Shown one piece after another: positions 15,342 through 21,607 of a stretch of 64,000 nt of DNA. Source of the stretch: Ideonella sp. (GTDB lineage: Bacteria > Pseudomonadota > Gammaproteobacteria > Burkholderiales > Burkholderiaceae_C); contig JABTUC010000006.1 of the NCBI GenBank assembly GCA_015075545.1, positions 59,537 through 123,536 on the forward strand, in the 5' to 3' direction. The notes beneath the pieces are model-generated. The model was not told where the DNA came from. It ran no database searches and saw only the letters and a program-made list of their open reading frames with translations. Position numbers and translations under genes: made by a program. Position 1 is the first letter of the stretch. Every line of letters starts with the position of its first letter.

Positions 15342-16154
15342 TCAGTGTGCCAGCAGCACCGGCAGCGTCATGCCCTCGAGCACCGTGCGGCTGGCTCCGC
15401 CGAGCACGAACTCGCGTGCGCGCGAGTGGCCGTAGCAGCCCATCACCAGCAGGTCGGCGTCGAGGTCGGCGGCCAGCGACAGCAGCATCTCGCCGGCCTC
15501 GGCCGGGCGCGCGTTCACCGTGTGCAGCTTGGCCTGGATGCCGTGGCGTTGCAGGTATTGGCGCAGTGCGGCGTGCTCGCTGCCGTTGGCCTCGACGCCG
15601 ACGTGCACCGTCTTGGCCATGCGCAGCAGCGGCAGCGCCGCGGTGAGCGCGCGCGCCGCCTCGCGGCTCTCTTTCCAGGCGACGAAGGCGGTGTCGCGGC
15701 GCGGCGCGCCCTTGGCGATGTACGGCACCACCAGCGCCGGCTTGCCGCTGGCGATCACCACCGACTGCACGAAATCGACCGGCACGCCGCTCTCGCGATG
15801 CTCGCGGTCGAGCTGGCCGAGCACCAGCAGGTCGGCGTAGAGCGCGTCGCGGACGAAGGTGAACTCCGACGCCGAGCTTGCCTCGCGCCACTGCACCTGC
15901 GGGCCCGCTTCGGCGTTGACCTTGGCCACCAGCTTGCGCGCCGCCTCGAGCCGCTCGGTGTCGTACGCCATCAACGCCTCGCCGGCGCTGCCGACGACCA
16001 CGTCGGTGGCTGCCTGCACGTACAGCGGCGTCACCGCGTACAGCGCGGTCACCGCAGCGCCGAACTGCGCGGCCAGCGCTCGCGCCACCTGCAACCGCAC
16101 CGCACCTTGCGGCCCGGTGTCGAGGTGCACGAGGATCGATTGGATCGGGTTCAC
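15342..16154 (-). CDS. universal stress protein, two-domain (UspA family)
   Basis: A 270-residue protein made of two Usp domains. GTG at 16154 is chosen as the start because GGGAG lies just upstream and the protein then begins VNPIQSILVHLD, the usual first strand. The second domain keeps the ATP-binding loop GCYGHSRAREFVLGGASRTVL; the first has a degenerate version (GQLDREHRESG). Such proteins bind ATP and help survival under starvation or redox stress. It is transcribed alone between the hydrolase and the flavoprotein. Confidence 0.92.
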   Translation of the reverse strand: MNPIQSILVHLDTGPQGAVRLQVARALAAQFGAAVTALYAVTPLYVQAATDVVVGSAGEALMAYDTERLEAARKLVAKVNAEAGPQVQWREASSASEFTFVRDALYADLLVLGQLDREHRESGVPVDFVQSVVIASGKPALVVPYIAKGAPRRDTAFVAWKESREAARALTAALPLLRMAKTVHVGVEANGSEHAALRQYLQRHGIQAKLHTVNARPAEAGEMLLSLAADLDADLLVMGCYGHSRAREFVLGGASRTVLEGMTLPVLLAH

Positions 16155-16287
16155 TGACTTGCTCCCTTCGACGTGCGCGTCATCCAGCCTTCGGGCGCAT
16201 CTTCGCGCCGCGAGGCCGTGGCGGCATTGACCTCGCGCAACCTGGGGGTTCTGCCGCCGCCCCGTGCTCACGGCCATCGGCGCGGCA

Positions 16288-17637
16288 TCAGGCCCGCAAC
16301 ACGCACTTCTCGTACAAGCCGAGCAGCCGCCCGTGCGGGTCGTAGCGCGCCTTCAGGCAGGCGTACTCGGCCATGCCGTAGGCGGCGTCGAACTGCGCGC
16401 GCGTGAAGAAGCTGTCGGAGTACAGCGACTTGATGCCACCCAGCCGGATCACCTCGTGCTCGACCAGCCGGTTGAAATAGCCCGGTTCGTGCGCTCGGCG
16501 GCCGTGCACCGTGTCCCAGAAGCCGAAGTTGACGTACAGCGTGTCGGCGGCCAGCGGGTAGAGCACGAAGGGCCCGCTGCCCGCCGGCGCGCGCAGCGGG
16601 CACAGCCAGATCGGCACGATGCCGATCTCGCGCAGCAGGAACTCGAGGAACTCGCCGGCGTGCTCGATCGGGATGTCGACGTCCTGGATCACCGCCTCGG
16701 GATGGTCGCCGCGCAGGCGCGCCCAGCGGCGCGCCAGCCCCCAACGCGCGTTCCAGCGCATGATGCGCGTGTAGGTGCGCGAGTTCAGCCGCTTGCGCCC
16801 GAGCAGGCGCCGCAGCAGCGGCTGCTGCGCGCCGACGTTCTTCGAGCACCAGAACCAGTCGGTGTCCCAGCGCCAGAGGTAGTCGCGCGTGCGCAGATGG
16901 TCGACCTCGCGGCTCAGCAGCGAGCGGTAGTAGATGTGCTCGAAGGTGTAGTCGCTGAGCGCCGGCGCCTCGTCGGCGAAGCGCGCCACGTTGAGCACGT
17001 ACGAGTGCGGCGCGAAGGCGACGGCGTCGACGAAGTCGGCGTCGCCCGCGCACGCCGCGGCCAGCGCCGCGAGGAACGAGCGCGTCGCGTCGAAGCGCCG
17101 GTGTTCCACGCGCACGCAGGCTCGCACCGGCAGCGTGCGCTGGCGCAGCCGCAGCGCATAGCCGAGCGTGCCGTACGAGTTGGGAAACCCGAAGAACAGG
17201 TCGCTGTGCTCGTTGTGCGGCGTCGCGCGCACGATGTCGCCCTCGGGCAGCAGCACGTCGAGCTCGAGCAGGCCGTGGTGCACCAGCCCGTGGCGGAACG
17301 AGGTGGCCTCGATGCCCACGCCGGCGGCCGCGCCGCCGAGCGTGATGGTCTTCAGTTGCGGCACCACCATCGGCATCGCGCCGTGCGCCAGCGTGGCATC
17401 GGCCAGCGCCTCGAACGTCGCCAGGCCCTCGGCGTCGACCCAGCCCTGCTGGGCATCGACGCCCAGCACGTGGTCGAACGCCCGCAGGTCGAGCCGCCGC
17501 TTGGTGCGCTCGGCGCGGTCGCGAAACAGGTTCGACGTGCCCTTGGCCAGCCCCAGCGGCGCACCGGCGGAGCGCCCGCGCAACTGCGCGAGCACGGCGT
17601 CGCGCCGCTGCTCGTGCGCCTGCAAGGTGCTCGGCAC
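16288..17637 (-). CDS. FAD-binding oxidoreductase paired with CFA-like synthase (TmsA-like)
   Basis: A 449-residue flavoprotein with a PCMH-type FAD_binding_4 domain in the first 200 residues: KGTSNLFR, VPQLKTITLGGAAAGVGIEA and NSYGTLGYAL are the FAD-contact stretches seen in the DIMINUTO/D-lactate-dehydrogenase-like group. GTG 17637 gives VPSTLQAHEQ as start; no ATG is available nearby. The gene lies 17 bases downstream of a CFA-synthase-like methyltransferase. In actinobacteria, such pairs make 10-methyl fatty acids: the methyltransferase (TmsB) adds a methylene and the flavoprotein (TmsA) reduces it. The same role here is inferred from pairing and domain type, not shown. Confidence 0.82.
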   Translation of the reverse strand: MPSTLQAHEQRRDAVLAQLRGRSAGAPLGLAKGTSNLFRDRAERTKRRLDLRAFDHVLGVDAQQGWVDAEGLATFEALADATLAHGAMPMVVPQLKTITLGGAAAGVGIEATSFRHGLVHHGLLELDVLLPEGDIVRATPHNEHSDLFFGFPNSYGTLGYALRLRQRTLPVRACVRVEHRRFDATRSFLAALAAACAGDADFVDAVAFAPHSYVLNVARFADEAPALSDYTFEHIYYRSLLSREVDHLRTRDYLWRWDTDWFWCSKNVGAQQPLLRRLLGRKRLNSRTYTRIMRWNARWGLARRWARLRGDHPEAVIQDVDIPIEHAGEFLEFLLREIGIVPIWLCPLRAPAGSGPFVLYPLAADTLYVNFGFWDTVHGRRAHEPGYFNRLVEHEVIRLGGIKSLYSDSFFTRAQFDAAYGMAEYACLKARYDPHGRLLGLYEKCVLRA

Positions 17638-17654
17638 GCGCAGCCTCGCGCCGA

Positions 17655-18878
17655 TCAGGTGCGGTACAGGTGGGCGCGCCCCATCGGATAACCCTCGCGC
17701 GTGACGTTGCCCTTGCTGAACACGATCTGGAACAGGTGCGTGTAGCCCGCGCGCGAGCGGAACATCTCGGCGCAGCCCACCAGGTAGCTGCGCCAGATGC
17801 GCCGGAAGCGCTCGTCGAAGTGCGTGCGGTCGATGGCCTGGATCGCCGGCCACTGGCGCTCGAAGCGCAGCGCCCACTCGTCGAGCGTGAGTGCGTAGTG
17901 GCGGCGCAGGTTCTCGATGTCGATCACCTCGAGGCCGCAGCGCTCCATCTCGGCGATCACCTCGGCGAGGCTCGGTATCCAGCCGCCGGGGAAGACGTGC
18001 TTGCGGATGAACAGCTCGGTGTCGTAGCGACCGACGTGGCCGATGAAGTGCAGCAGGCCGAGGCCGCCCGGCTTCAGGAAATCGGCGTGCGCCTTGACCA
18101 CCTCGGCGAGCTGGTCGCGGCCGGCGTGCTCGAGCACGCCGATCGACACCACCTTGTCGTAGGCCTGGTCGACTTCGCGGAAATCGGCCTCGCGCACGCT
18201 CAGCCGATCGGCCAGGCCGCGCTGCGCGATCGTCTCGCGCAGCCAGTCGACCTGTTCGGTGGCGGTGTTGACGCCGCTGCCGAAGGCGCCCACCGTCTGC
18301 AGCGCGCGCAACATGAAGCCGCCGAAGCCGCAGCCGATGTCGACGAAACGCTCGCCCGCCGCGAGCCGGATCTTGCGGCACACGTGGTCGATCTTCTGCT
18401 GCTGCGCCTGCTCGAGCGTGGTGGTGCCCTCGGGCCAGTAGCCGCAGGTGTACATCATCAGCGGGTCGTCGAGCCAGTGACCGTAGAACTGCGCCGGCAG
18501 GCCGTAGTGCGCGCGCGCGTTGGCCTTGGCCTGCGCCGCGGTGCGGTTGGAGTAGCGCAGCTCGTGCAGGTTGTTCTCGAGTCCGACGACGGCGTTGAAC
18601 TGGGTGTCGAAGCCGCTGGCCAGGCCGGCGGCGAACGCGGCGCCGAGGTCGCCCTCGACGTCGACCGCCTGGTCGAAGTAGGCGTCGAGCAGCCCGATGT
18701 GGCCGCGCAGAAAGGTCGACAGCAGCGCGGCGTCGCTGCGGAACACGATGCGGAACCTCGGCTCCCCTCGACCGGTCGTATAGACCGTGCCGTCGGCGGT
18801 GACGACCGCGAAGGCTGCGCCCGAACGCTCGCCGAGCGAGTCGACGAGGCTTTGCACCAATGCGCCACTGAAATTCAT
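17655..18878 (-). CDS. cyclopropane-fatty-acyl-phospholipid synthase family methyltransferase (TmsB/UfaA1-like)
   Basis: A 407-residue SAM-dependent enzyme that modifies double bonds of phospholipid acyl chains. An N-terminal SCP2-like domain (to about residue 90) precedes the methyltransferase core. The core has MMYTCGYW at 141-148 (family active-site region), SAM motif I VDIGCGFGG at 179-187, GVLEHAG and the C-terminal RIWRSYLVGCAEMFRSR. The products of this family include cyclopropane, methylene and methyl-branched acyl chains. Being followed directly by an FAD oxidoreductase favours methylene/10-methyl chemistry over plain cyclopropanation, by inference. Confidence 0.92.
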   Translation of the reverse strand: MNFSGALVQSLVDSLGERSGAAFAVVTADGTVYTTGRGEPRFRIVFRSDAALLSTFLRGHIGLLDAYFDQAVDVEGDLGAAFAAGLASGFDTQFNAVVGLENNLHELRYSNRTAAQAKANARAHYGLPAQFYGHWLDDPLMMYTCGYWPEGTTTLEQAQQQKIDHVCRKIRLAAGERFVDIGCGFGGFMLRALQTVGAFGSGVNTATEQVDWLRETIAQRGLADRLSVREADFREVDQAYDKVVSIGVLEHAGRDQLAEVVKAHADFLKPGGLGLLHFIGHVGRYDTELFIRKHVFPGGWIPSLAEVIAEMERCGLEVIDIENLRRHYALTLDEWALRFERQWPAIQAIDRTHFDERFRRIWRSYLVGCAEMFRSRAGYTHLFQIVFSKGNVTREGYPMGRAHLYRT

Positions 18879-18959: not shown

Positions 18960-20780
18960 ATGGAAAAGAAGCACGCCTGGAACATCGGCTACTGGATGCT
19001 CGCGATACTCGCGGTGCTGTGGGCACAGAGCCTGTGGCAGTCGGCGGTGCGCGTGGAGCCGGTGCCGTACAGCGATTTCGAGAAGGCGCTGGCCGACGGC
19101 AAGATCGACAGCGTGGTGATCGGCGAGCAAACCATCACCGGCCACCTCAAGACGCCCGAGGGCCGCAAGACGGCGCTGGTGGCCACCCGCGTCGAGCCCG
19201 ACGTGGCCGCGCATCTCGACAAATACAACGTGCGCTACAGCCGCGTGGTCGAGAGCACGTTCCTGCGCGACCTGATGTCGTGGATCGTGCCGGCGGCGGT
19301 GTTCGTGGGCTTGTGGTACTTCGTGATCCGACGCATGGCTGATCGGCAGGGCGGCATGGGTGGCATGGGCGGCTTCCTGTCGATCGGCAAGAGCCGCGCC
19401 AAGGTCTACGTGCAGACCGACACCGGCGTCACCTTCGCCGACGTGGCCGGCGTCGACGAGGCGCGCGCCGAGCTGGCCGAGGTGGTCGACTTCCTGAAGA
19501 ACCCCAAGGAGTACGGCCGCCTGGGTGCGCACATCCCGCGCGGCGTGCTGCTGGTGGGGCCGCCGGGCACCGGCAAGACGCTGCTGGCCAAGGCGGTGGC
19601 CGGCGAGGCGGGGGTGCCGTTCTTCTCGATCTCGGGTAGCGAGTTCGTCGAGATGTTCGTCGGCGTCGGCGCCGCGCGCGTGCGCGATCTGTTCGAGCAG
19701 GCGCGTGGCCGTGCGCCGGCGATCGTCTTCATCGACGAACTCGACGCGCTCGGTCGCGCGCGCGGCGCCTACGGCAGCATCGGCGGCCACGACGAAAAGG
19801 AGCAGACGCTGAACCAGCTGCTGGCCGAGATGGACGGCTTCGACACCTCGGTGGGGCTGATCATCCTGGCGGCGACCAACCGGCCTGAGGTGCTCGACCC
19901 GGCGCTGCTGCGCGCGGGGCGTTTCGACCGCCAGGTGCTGGTCGACCGGCCCGACCGCAAGGGCCGCGCCGACATCCTGAAGGTGCACGTGCGCAAGATC
20001 GCGCTCGACCCGGCGCTGTCGCTCGACCAGGTGGCCGCGCTGACGCCGGGGTTCAGCGGCGCCGACCTCGCCAACCTGGTCAACGAGGCGGCGCTGGCGG
20101 CCACGCGGCGCAAGGCGGCGCAGGTGCAGATGACCGACTTCACCGCCGCGGTCGAGCGCCTCGTCGCCGGGCTCGAGCGGCGCAGCCGGTTGATCAACGA
20201 GAAGGAGCGGCGCTGGGTCGCCTACCACGAGATGGGGCACACGCTGGTCGCGCTGTCGCAGCCCGACGCCGATGCGGTGCACAAGGTGTCGATCATCCCG
20301 CGCGGCATCGGCGCGCTCGGCTACACGATCCAGCGGCCGAGCGAGGACCGCCACCTCGCCACGCGCGGCGAGATGCAGCAGCGCATCGCGGTGCTGCTGG
20401 GCGGGCGAGCGGCCGAGATGGTGGTGTTCGGCGACTTCTCCAGCGGCGCCTCCGATGACCTGGCGCGCGCCACCGAGATCGCGCGCGACATGGTGATGCG
20501 CCACGGCATGGACGAGGGCATCGGCCCGGTGACCATCGAGCCGCCGCGCTCGACGTTTCTCGACGTCGCGCAGCCGATGCCGGCGCGACCACCGGTGTCC
20601 GAGGCGCTGCAGCAGCGCGTCGACGATGCCGTGCATGCGCTCGTCACCACCGGGCTGCAGCAGGCGCGCGCGGTGCTGCAGCAGCACCGCGACCTGCTCG
20701 AACGCGGCGCGCAGGAGCTGCTGCAGAAGGAGACGCTCGACGAGGCGGCGATCGCGGTCTACGCGAAGGCGCTGCGCTGA
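18960..20780 (+). CDS. ftsH: FtsH-family ATP-dependent zinc metalloprotease (second-type paralogue)
   Basis: A 606-residue inner-membrane AAA+ protease. Two N-terminal membrane segments (about 10-25 and 105-123) flank a small periplasmic domain. The AAA domain has Walker A GPPGTGKT (200-207), Walker [12 protein letters not shown] and second region of homology [20 protein letters not shown]. The peptidase site is HEMGH at 423-427, not the usual HEAGH, with the third zinc ligand probably Asp500 in [11 protein letters not shown]. It lacks the longer C-terminal tail of E. coli FtsH (644 residues). Normal ftsH neighbours (rlmE, folP, glmM) are absent, so this looks like an extra copy. Confidence 0.93.
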
Positions 20781-20875: not shown

Positions 20876-21607
20876 ATGCCATCCACGGTGAGGTTGGGTT
20901 CGCGCGGGTTCGATGTCGCGCTGGTGCAGCTTCAGCTGAACCTCAAGGGCACACCGAGTCCGCGCCTGGTGGTCGACGGCGTCTTCGGCCCGCTGACGCA
21001 TGCCGCGCTGGTTGCGTTCCAGCGTGCGGCGAGGCTGTCGCCCGACGGCGTGGCCGGCCCGCTGACGCACACCGAACTCGCGCGAGGCCTGACGCTGAGC
21101 ACCGCCCACCACGCGGTGAACCACATCGCCCAGCCGACGCCCACCACCTGCTGGGCCGCCAGCACCGCGATGATGACGCGCTCCACCGTGCCCGCGGTGC
21201 AGGCCAGGACGCCGCGCGACATGATCGCGGCCGACGGCGGCCTGCTCAACAGCTCGGGCAGCGACCAGGCGGTGGTCAGCGGCGCGCGCTACGGTGCGTG
21301 TCACGGCCTGCGCTGCCACGCGCCGATGAGCTGGACCGTCGCCAGCCTGGTGGCCGCGCTGCGGCGCAGCCCGCTGATGTTCGACATGCTCTGGCGCAGC
21401 AACGAGTACGCGCAGGGCGCGGCCTCGCCCGGCCACATGATCGTGGTGTCGGCGCTGGTCAGCGACAACCAGCCGGCAGGCGCCGGCACGTACCTGCACG
21501 TGCTCGACCCGTGGCCGCCGCATCGCGGCAAGGTGTCGTGGGAGGCGTACGGCCGCTGGATCAACGAGGTGCCGACGCGCACCTATCGGGTGTTCGAGCG
21601 CGTCTGA
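20876..21607 (+). CDS. peptidoglycan-binding domain plus papain-like (C70/AvrRpt2-type) cysteine protease
   Basis: A 243-residue two-domain protein. Residues 1-70 are a PG_binding_1 domain (VRLGSRGFDVALVQLQLNL, VVDGVFGPLTHAALVAFQ). Residues 80-240 resemble papain-like proteases of the AvrRpt2/C70 group, with a full triad in order: Cys92 (TPTTCWAASTAMM), His187 (SPGHMIVVSA) and Asp211 (HVLDPWPP). No signal peptide is visible, so export by Sec is unlikely. Such proteins are found as secreted effectors, toxins or uncharacterised lytic factors. GAGGA lies nine bases before the ATG. It sits alone after ftsH. Confidence 0.82.
   Translation: MPSTVRLGSRGFDVALVQLQLNLKGTPSPRLVVDGVFGPLTHAALVAFQRAARLSPDGVAGPLTHTELARGLTLSTAHHAVNHIAQPTPTTCWAASTAMMTRSTVPAVQARTPRDMIAADGGLLNSSGSDQAVVSGARYGACHGLRCHAPMSWTVASLVAALRRSPLMFDMLWRSNEYAQGAASPGHMIVVSALVSDNQPAGAGTYLHVLDPWPPHRGKVSWEAYGRWINEVPTRTYRVFERV

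Follow-up and report, generated by a model that had tools for sequence, protein, structure and literature searches.

Which fatty acids are made by a bacterium that encodes, side by side, a methyltransferase of the cyclopropane fatty acid (CFA) synthase family and a flavoprotein with relatives in actinobacteria? This question is raised by a locus in a 64,000-nucleotide stretch of contig JABTUC010000006.1 (Ideonella sp., assembly GCA_015075545.1), the whole of which we refer to as the window. A preliminary description of this DNA had noted a CFA-like methyltransferase gene followed, 17 bases later, by a gene for a PCMH-type flavoprotein binding flavin adenine dinucleotide (FAD), and had proposed a route to 10-methyl or furan fatty acids. 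The layout was confirmed by the open reading frames (ORFs), the Pfam matches and the spacer, and the two genes are probably co-transcribed. We consider it likely that the pair makes mid-chain methyl-branched phospholipid fatty acids in two steps. The features of the pair are as follows:

17655..18878, minus strand: CFA-synthase-family methyltransferase, 407 aa; PF02353 (CMAS), 234 bits, residues 116-384; proposed to act on the double bond of phospholipid acyl chains, which would gain a methyl(ene) group
17638..17654, minus strand: 17-base spacer between the TGA of the methyltransferase gene and the GTG of the flavoprotein gene
16288..17637, minus strand: PCMH flavoprotein assigned to the BfaA family, 449 aa, GTG start; PF01565 (FAD_binding_4), 42.7 bits; proposed reductase of a methylene intermediate
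17344..17367, minus strand: motif VVPQLKTI, flavoprotein residues 91-98, in the FAD domain; conserved in two alignments and used as the family pattern
16843..16875, minus strand: motif WRWDTDWFWCS, flavoprotein residues 255-265; invariant in 42/42 aligned family members

Family and pairing of the flavoprotein

The actinobacterial pair is also named TmsA and TmsB. In the papers cited here, the gene names are bfaA/bfaB and tmpA/tmpB (PMC5660069, PMC7791843). Compared over the full length, the flavoprotein of the window shares 47, 44 and 44% identity with Nonomuraea, Tsukamurella and Nocardia proteins, respectively, and up to 53% with other actinobacterial proteins; the scan retained the best 80 loci from 590 relatives, and all counts over them describe a sample. 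In the Tsukamurella locus (L038), the flavoprotein gene is located between an SRPBCC gene and the methyltransferase gene, with recR, YbaB/EbfC, amidase and DNA polymerase III genes around. The bfaAB neighbourhood given by Machida et al. (PMC5660069) consists of recR, YbaB/EbfC, amidase, SRPBCC/polyketide cyclase, flavoprotein, methyltransferase and DNA polymerase III genes. From the sequence identity and the matching surroundings, we place the flavoprotein in the BfaA family; the assignment runs through actinobacterial members, one of them in the bfaAB neighbourhood, and not through the published BfaA sequence. According to that paper, bfaA and bfaB expressed in E. coli yield 10-methylstearate via a methylene intermediate, and Blitzblau et al. 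(PMC7791843) confirm this result, with reduced nicotinamide adenine dinucleotide phosphate (NADPH) as the reductant; methylene acids, according to the latter source, break down in acid.

The AlphaFold2 model of the flavoprotein (predicted local distance difference test, pLDDT, 89.8) was found by structural comparison to have the fold of DprE1, L-galactonolactone dehydrogenase and cytokinin dehydrogenase. The preliminary description had named grouping with D-lactate dehydrogenases as an outcome that would refute its reading. The PDB sequences matched at E 0.001 numbered 24 and included none of these enzymes; the 50 rows listed by Foldseek or VIA-align held none either, although this structural absence alone would not decide the matter. 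Judged by sequence, the flavoprotein belongs to the BfaA (TmsA) family and not to the D-lactate dehydrogenases, and therefore the 10-methyl-type route that had been proposed is the best reading.

A methyltransferase of the same clade as that of the window was located upstream, on the same strand, in 41 other flavoprotein loci (some cut by contig ends), with fragments of one in 2 more; nine partial methyltransferase sequences, which came from L056, L087, L088, L090, L135, L139 and L145, were left out of the counts. ORF starts in the fetched loci were set by a script, and intergene distances there were not used. In a sample of 369 genomes of the class, searched at E 1e-60 for the flavoprotein and at E 1e-90 for the window-type methyltransferase, we detected the former in 14 and the latter in 5, and all five methyltransferase genes lie within 63 bases of a flavoprotein gene. 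The pairing is not due to chance, and the co-conservation for which the preliminary description had suggested a search was found. Gene order differs between groups: the methyltransferase comes first in 42/42 loci of the window clade and the flavoprotein in 18/18 actinobacterial loci, and among partners of the E. coli Cfa type the methyltransferase is first in 8 loci and the flavoprotein in 2.

The full-length flavoprotein is encoded in 3/6 genomes of the genus, 5/60 of the family and 7/100 relatives, the window genome included. Cultured bacteria that carry the pair are Zeimonas arvi CC-CFT501 and Variovorax paradoxus VAI-C and 110B; in 110B the methyltransferase is read in two pieces, perhaps a knock-out of natural origin or an error of sequencing. 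The nearest named records among the matches listed are from Burkholderiales, and the sampled loci extend to beta-, gamma- and deltaproteobacteria, Nitrospira, Opitutales, Solibacter and actinobacteria; further ones come from metagenome-assembled genomes (MAGs) labelled Patescibacteria, Magasanikbacteria and Woesearchaeota, for which mis-binning is possible. In fourteen flavoprotein loci, no methyltransferase lies within the flanking sequence retrieved (7 kb at most), and only a methyltransferase remnant adjoins the intact flavoprotein gene in L062 (6680-6973) and L075 (6458-6999). These cases could suggest a separate function of the flavoprotein, which is not needed because all 16 genomes hold a CFA-family gene elsewhere, in 13/16 one of the tmpB-like clade described below. 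L161 likewise has a remnant of a window-type methyltransferase beside an intact flavoprotein gene. L062 comes from a MAG whose title, Bordetella parapertussis, is probably wrong, and the L075 genome has a tmpB-like methyltransferase elsewhere (L131). In a groundwater MAG (L115:4853-7900), a fatty-acid-hydroxylase-family gene (PF04116), the flavoprotein gene and the methyltransferase gene stand in a row.

Methyltransferase lineages and position 238

The AlphaFold2 model of the methyltransferase (pLDDT 92.7) has the fold of CFA synthases as a whole (7qos_A, TM-score 0.92 on the target; 6bqc, 0.87). Therefore, its N-terminal part is of the type common to these enzymes, and the SCP2-like domain that had been suggested was not borne out, as Pfam finds no SCP2. 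The catalytic residues C139, E239, H266, I268 and Y317 (E. coli Cfa numbering) are conserved both in the window protein and in 40/40 aligned members of its clade, which leads us to expect methyl transfer by the enzyme. A separate ordinary CFA synthase with the residues YSC/MFEH is encoded elsewhere in the host genome (G000:C6:289800-290615).

We built a tree of 48 CFA-family proteins and compared constrained topologies by the p-value of the approximately unbiased test (p-AU). Clades were named from gene neighbourhood and not from the published TmpB, BfaB or UfaM sequences. Five clades were fully supported: that of the window, the actinobacterial partners, E. coli Cfa with the Nitrospira-type partners, the DUF1365-linked (UfaM-like) enzymes, and a gammaproteobacterial clade, which we call tmpB-like. 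The window clade and the actinobacterial partners each had 100/100 support; forcing them together was rejected (p-AU 0.0038), as was a single clade of the three flavoprotein-linked groups (p-AU 6e-8). Joining the window clade with the E. coli-type, tmpB-like or DUF1365-linked enzymes was not rejected (p-AU 0.25, 0.0965 and 0.0506, respectively); in the best tree the window and tmpB-like clades are apart. Identity between the window methyltransferase and the actinobacterial ones is 29-37% in pairwise and multiple alignments.

It had been claimed that the locus is the same pair as in actinobacteria. This holds for the flavoprotein family (44-53% identity), and an adjacent CFA-superfamily methyltransferase using S-adenosylmethionine (SAM), with intact catalytic residues, is present as in BfaA-BfaB; it fails for the methyltransferase, which is of another clade, and for gene order, which is reversed, in a host of a different phylum. 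Because clade and order differ, the locus taken together does not qualify as a BfaAB operon, though the two-step chemistry that we propose is alike and the pair would work like BfaAB.

Two positions of the methyltransferase deserve attention:

18444..18449, minus strand: codons of T144-C145 (E. coli Cfa 138-139, by alignment); Thr replaces Ser before the Cys of the presumed bicarbonate site
18129..18134, minus strand: codons of L249-E250 (E. coli Cfa 238-239); Leu replaces the Phe of ordinary CFA synthases before the catalytic Glu

Phe238 was present in 30/30 E. coli-type Cfa proteins of random genomes of the class, in all five crystallised cyclopropane-forming enzymes (L. acidophilus, Aquifex, E. 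coli, PcaA and CmaA1), in 15/18 other references and in the host's own second Cfa. It is replaced in 70/70 flavoprotein-linked methyltransferases of three clades: by Leu in 42/42 of the window clade, by Thr (17) or Ile (1) in actinobacteria, and by Cys (8) or Met (2) in E. coli-type partners. The window enzyme, with Leu249, thus lacks the Phe of ordinary CFA synthases. Since the flavoprotein-linked groups do not form one clade, the change is convergent. We offer the hypothesis that this single residue may decide between ring closure and methylene formation in CFA-family enzymes. Position 138 was tried as a second signature and rejected: all 70 linked enzymes have Thr, and 17/18 references have Ser, yet Thr also occurs in 8/30 ordinary E. 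coli-type Cfa proteins.

Another reductase was found beside the tmpB-like clade. In Blitzblau et al. (PMC7791843), a second system of other bacteria, tmpB-tmpA, is described, in which TmpA is an unrelated geranylgeranyl-reductase-like flavoprotein, inactive in the hosts used. We detected the tmpB-like clade in 48/369 genomes of the class (46 at >400 bits and 2 partial), and its gene is mostly followed by one for a TIGR02032/PF01494 flavoprotein, the published tmpB-tmpA layout (L210-L239, L270-L287). A TmpA-like gene adjoins the methyltransferase in 30/39 genomes without a BfaA-type flavoprotein, compared to 0/9 with it (Fisher p 2.9e-5, a value that is too small because the genomes are related). 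Genome-wide, at E 1e-20, a TmpA-like match occurred in 0/14 flavoprotein genomes and in 9/14 other genomes searched, two of them included by mistake. The window genome has no TmpA-like match at E 1e-20; a geranylgeranyl-reductase-family protein at G000:C6:143992-144927 (170.7 bits, above the TIGR02032 cut-off) is not matched by the TmpA-like query at this threshold. Replacement of one flavoprotein by another, unrelated one beside the same clade is expected if both reduce its methylene product, suggesting that the TmpA-type and BfaA-type reductases fill one slot.

The proposed route and competing explanations

The sequence families, the fold, the pairing, the clade structure, the conservation of the catalytic residues and the TmpA-type exclusion are established directly; the reaction, step order, substrate and product, which we infer, are as follows. 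At a double bond of a membrane acyl chain, the methyltransferase would attach a methyl group taken from SAM; a proton would then leave, the cyclopropane ring would stay unclosed, and a methylene-branched chain would result. With NADPH as its reductant, the BfaA-type flavoprotein would then saturate the methylene group to a methyl branch. The usual betaproteobacterial substrates are 16:1 delta-9 and 18:1 delta-11, from which the predicted products are 10-methylpalmitate and 11- or 12-methylstearate.

Several points weigh against this route. The methyltransferase, as placed by the alignments and the tree, is not a BfaB orthologue, and no enzyme of its clade has a known product. The loss of Phe238 is not specific to flavoprotein-linked enzymes because it is also fixed in the tmpB-like clade (Leu in 14/14 and 30/30 loci, whether the flavoprotein is present or not) and occurs in 3/18 other references. 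In addition to the relatedness that deflates the exclusion p-value, 9/39 flavoprotein-free genomes have no adjacent TmpA-like gene: four have a match elsewhere (G354, G351, G447 and G268), three have none at E 1e-20 (G400, G143 and G289), G236 lay outside the search, and in G380 a divergent flavoprotein (34%) is encoded nearby. Searches of the open-access literature turned up neither an account of 10-methyl acids for Burkholderiales, Thiobacillus or Variovorax nor, among the results listed, a fatty-acid profile of Zeimonas.

If the methyltransferase were an ordinary cyclopropane synthase, with the flavoprotein acting on the cyclopropane lipid or having some other substrate, the shared fold, the complete set of CFA synthase catalytic residues and the non-rejected clade with E. 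coli-type Cfa (p-AU 0.25) would follow naturally. E. coli Cfa has Ser138 and Phe238 where the window enzyme has Thr and Leu, and it is the window clade that has an obligate flavoprotein neighbour; the replacement of Phe238, the 5/5 linkage with a BfaA-type flavoprotein and the separate CFA synthase of the host, with its ordinary YSC/MFEH residues, make this explanation unlikely. It is also conceivable that the flavoprotein is an oxidase or desaturase and not a reductase, the product being an unsaturated methyl-branched chain, as its structural neighbours are mostly dehydrogenases and oxidases (cytokinin dehydrogenase, DprE1, L-galactonolactone dehydrogenase). The family relation to BfaA, described as an NADPH-using reductase in PMC7791843, and the exclusion with a TmpA-like reductase speak against it, and we regard it as quite improbable.

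The furan route of the preliminary description is not supported. UfaM-type methyltransferases act on a mono-unsaturated phospholipid chain in the making of Rhodobacter furan fatty acids (PMC7380195), and the window enzyme belongs to the same superfamily; a clade with the DUF1365-linked methyltransferases is not firmly excluded (p-AU 0.0506), so that the pair might make a methylated furan precursor with the other genes elsewhere. However, DUF1365 (UfaO) had no match in the window genome, which is 85% complete, although the control was matched in Caulobacter. The six DUF1365-linked methyltransferases, with DUF1365 confirmed beside all of them, have E236, A240 and Q266 where the window enzyme has G, H and H, and the flavoprotein is of PF01565, whereas UfaD is described as phytoene-desaturase-like. 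We consider a furan precursor extremely unlikely. The window pair shares with TmpB-TmpA (Desulfobacter, Marinobacter and Thiohalospira; 10-methylpalmitate) the order of methyltransferase and then reductase, and its methyltransferase has Leu before the catalytic Glu like the tmpB-like clade, whereas the reductases are unrelated (PF01494/TIGR02032, geranylgeranyl-reductase-like, compared to PF01565).

The flavoprotein family adjoins methyltransferases of four separate clades, and does so in Proteobacteria, Actinobacteria, Nitrospira and further groups. A broader reading is that different CFA-synthase lineages were repeatedly recruited to a constant BfaA-type reductase, with convergent loss of Phe238 turning ring closure into methylene formation; the reductase would then mark the trait, and one gene family would stand, across much of the bacterial tree, behind the 10- and 11-methyl markers by which actinobacteria, sulfate reducers and Nitrospira are recognised. 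At least four lineages would be involved: actinobacterial BfaB, E. coli-type Cfa (Nitrospira and others), the betaproteobacterial window clade and the tmpB-like clade. We see the case for and against this reading as evenly balanced.

Nitrospiraceae loci, lipid markers and neighbouring genes

The flavoprotein was found in 12/60 genomes of the family of the Nitrospira MAG L102, those of L102 and L106 among them. An E. coli-type methyltransferase gene lies directly upstream in 12/12, its product 70-100% identical to that of L102, and in 11/12 the end of a fatty-acid desaturase gene precedes it within the 1.5-kb flank (PF00487 in L102). Loci with the cluster of desaturase, Cfa-type methyltransferase and flavoprotein are L093, L102, L106 and L190-L201. 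A review (PMC5516240) reports 11-methyl-hexadecanoic acid in Nitrospira moscoviensis and other Nitrospira and names no gene for it. The three genes would be candidates for the synthesis of Nitrospira 11-methylpalmitate, which was described in 2001 without genes.

The flavoprotein could serve as a gene marker for mid-chain methyl-branched lipids outside actinobacteria. Therefore, soil and water lipid profiles in which 10-methyl acids are read as actinobacteria or sulfate reducers may need re-examination; our results suggest that such lipids can be made by other bacteria. Comparison of the TmpA-type and BfaA-type reductases as two solutions for a single step would be useful because TmpA was inactive when tested, according to PMC7791843. 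Our search of the open-access literature, with subscription papers and preprints outside its scope, brought up the bfa papers, a review on branched fuels and some papers citing them, but no report of the pair in Betaproteobacteria, of the Nitrospira gene set or of the exclusion between the two reductases.

One further feature adjoins the pair, given here as context with no role in the pathway claimed:

15342..16277, minus strand: universal stress protein (USP) gene downstream of the pair; PF00582

A USP homologue is near the pair in 7/36 loci of the window methyltransferase clade, compared to 0/49 other loci; besides the window, the loci are L035, L042, L047, L061, L074, L079 and L090. L035 lies on a Variovorax megaplasmid, with USP, exopolysaccharide and P-type ATPase genes near the pair, a stress-type setting. 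On the other side, an FtsH-type protease gene (18960-20780; PF01434, PF00004) is divergent from the methyltransferase gene, with 81 bases between the starts, and the two possibly share a promoter region. At 20876-21607, a peptidoglycan-binding domain is fused to a papain-like C70 peptidase domain (a weak match, 24.8 bits).

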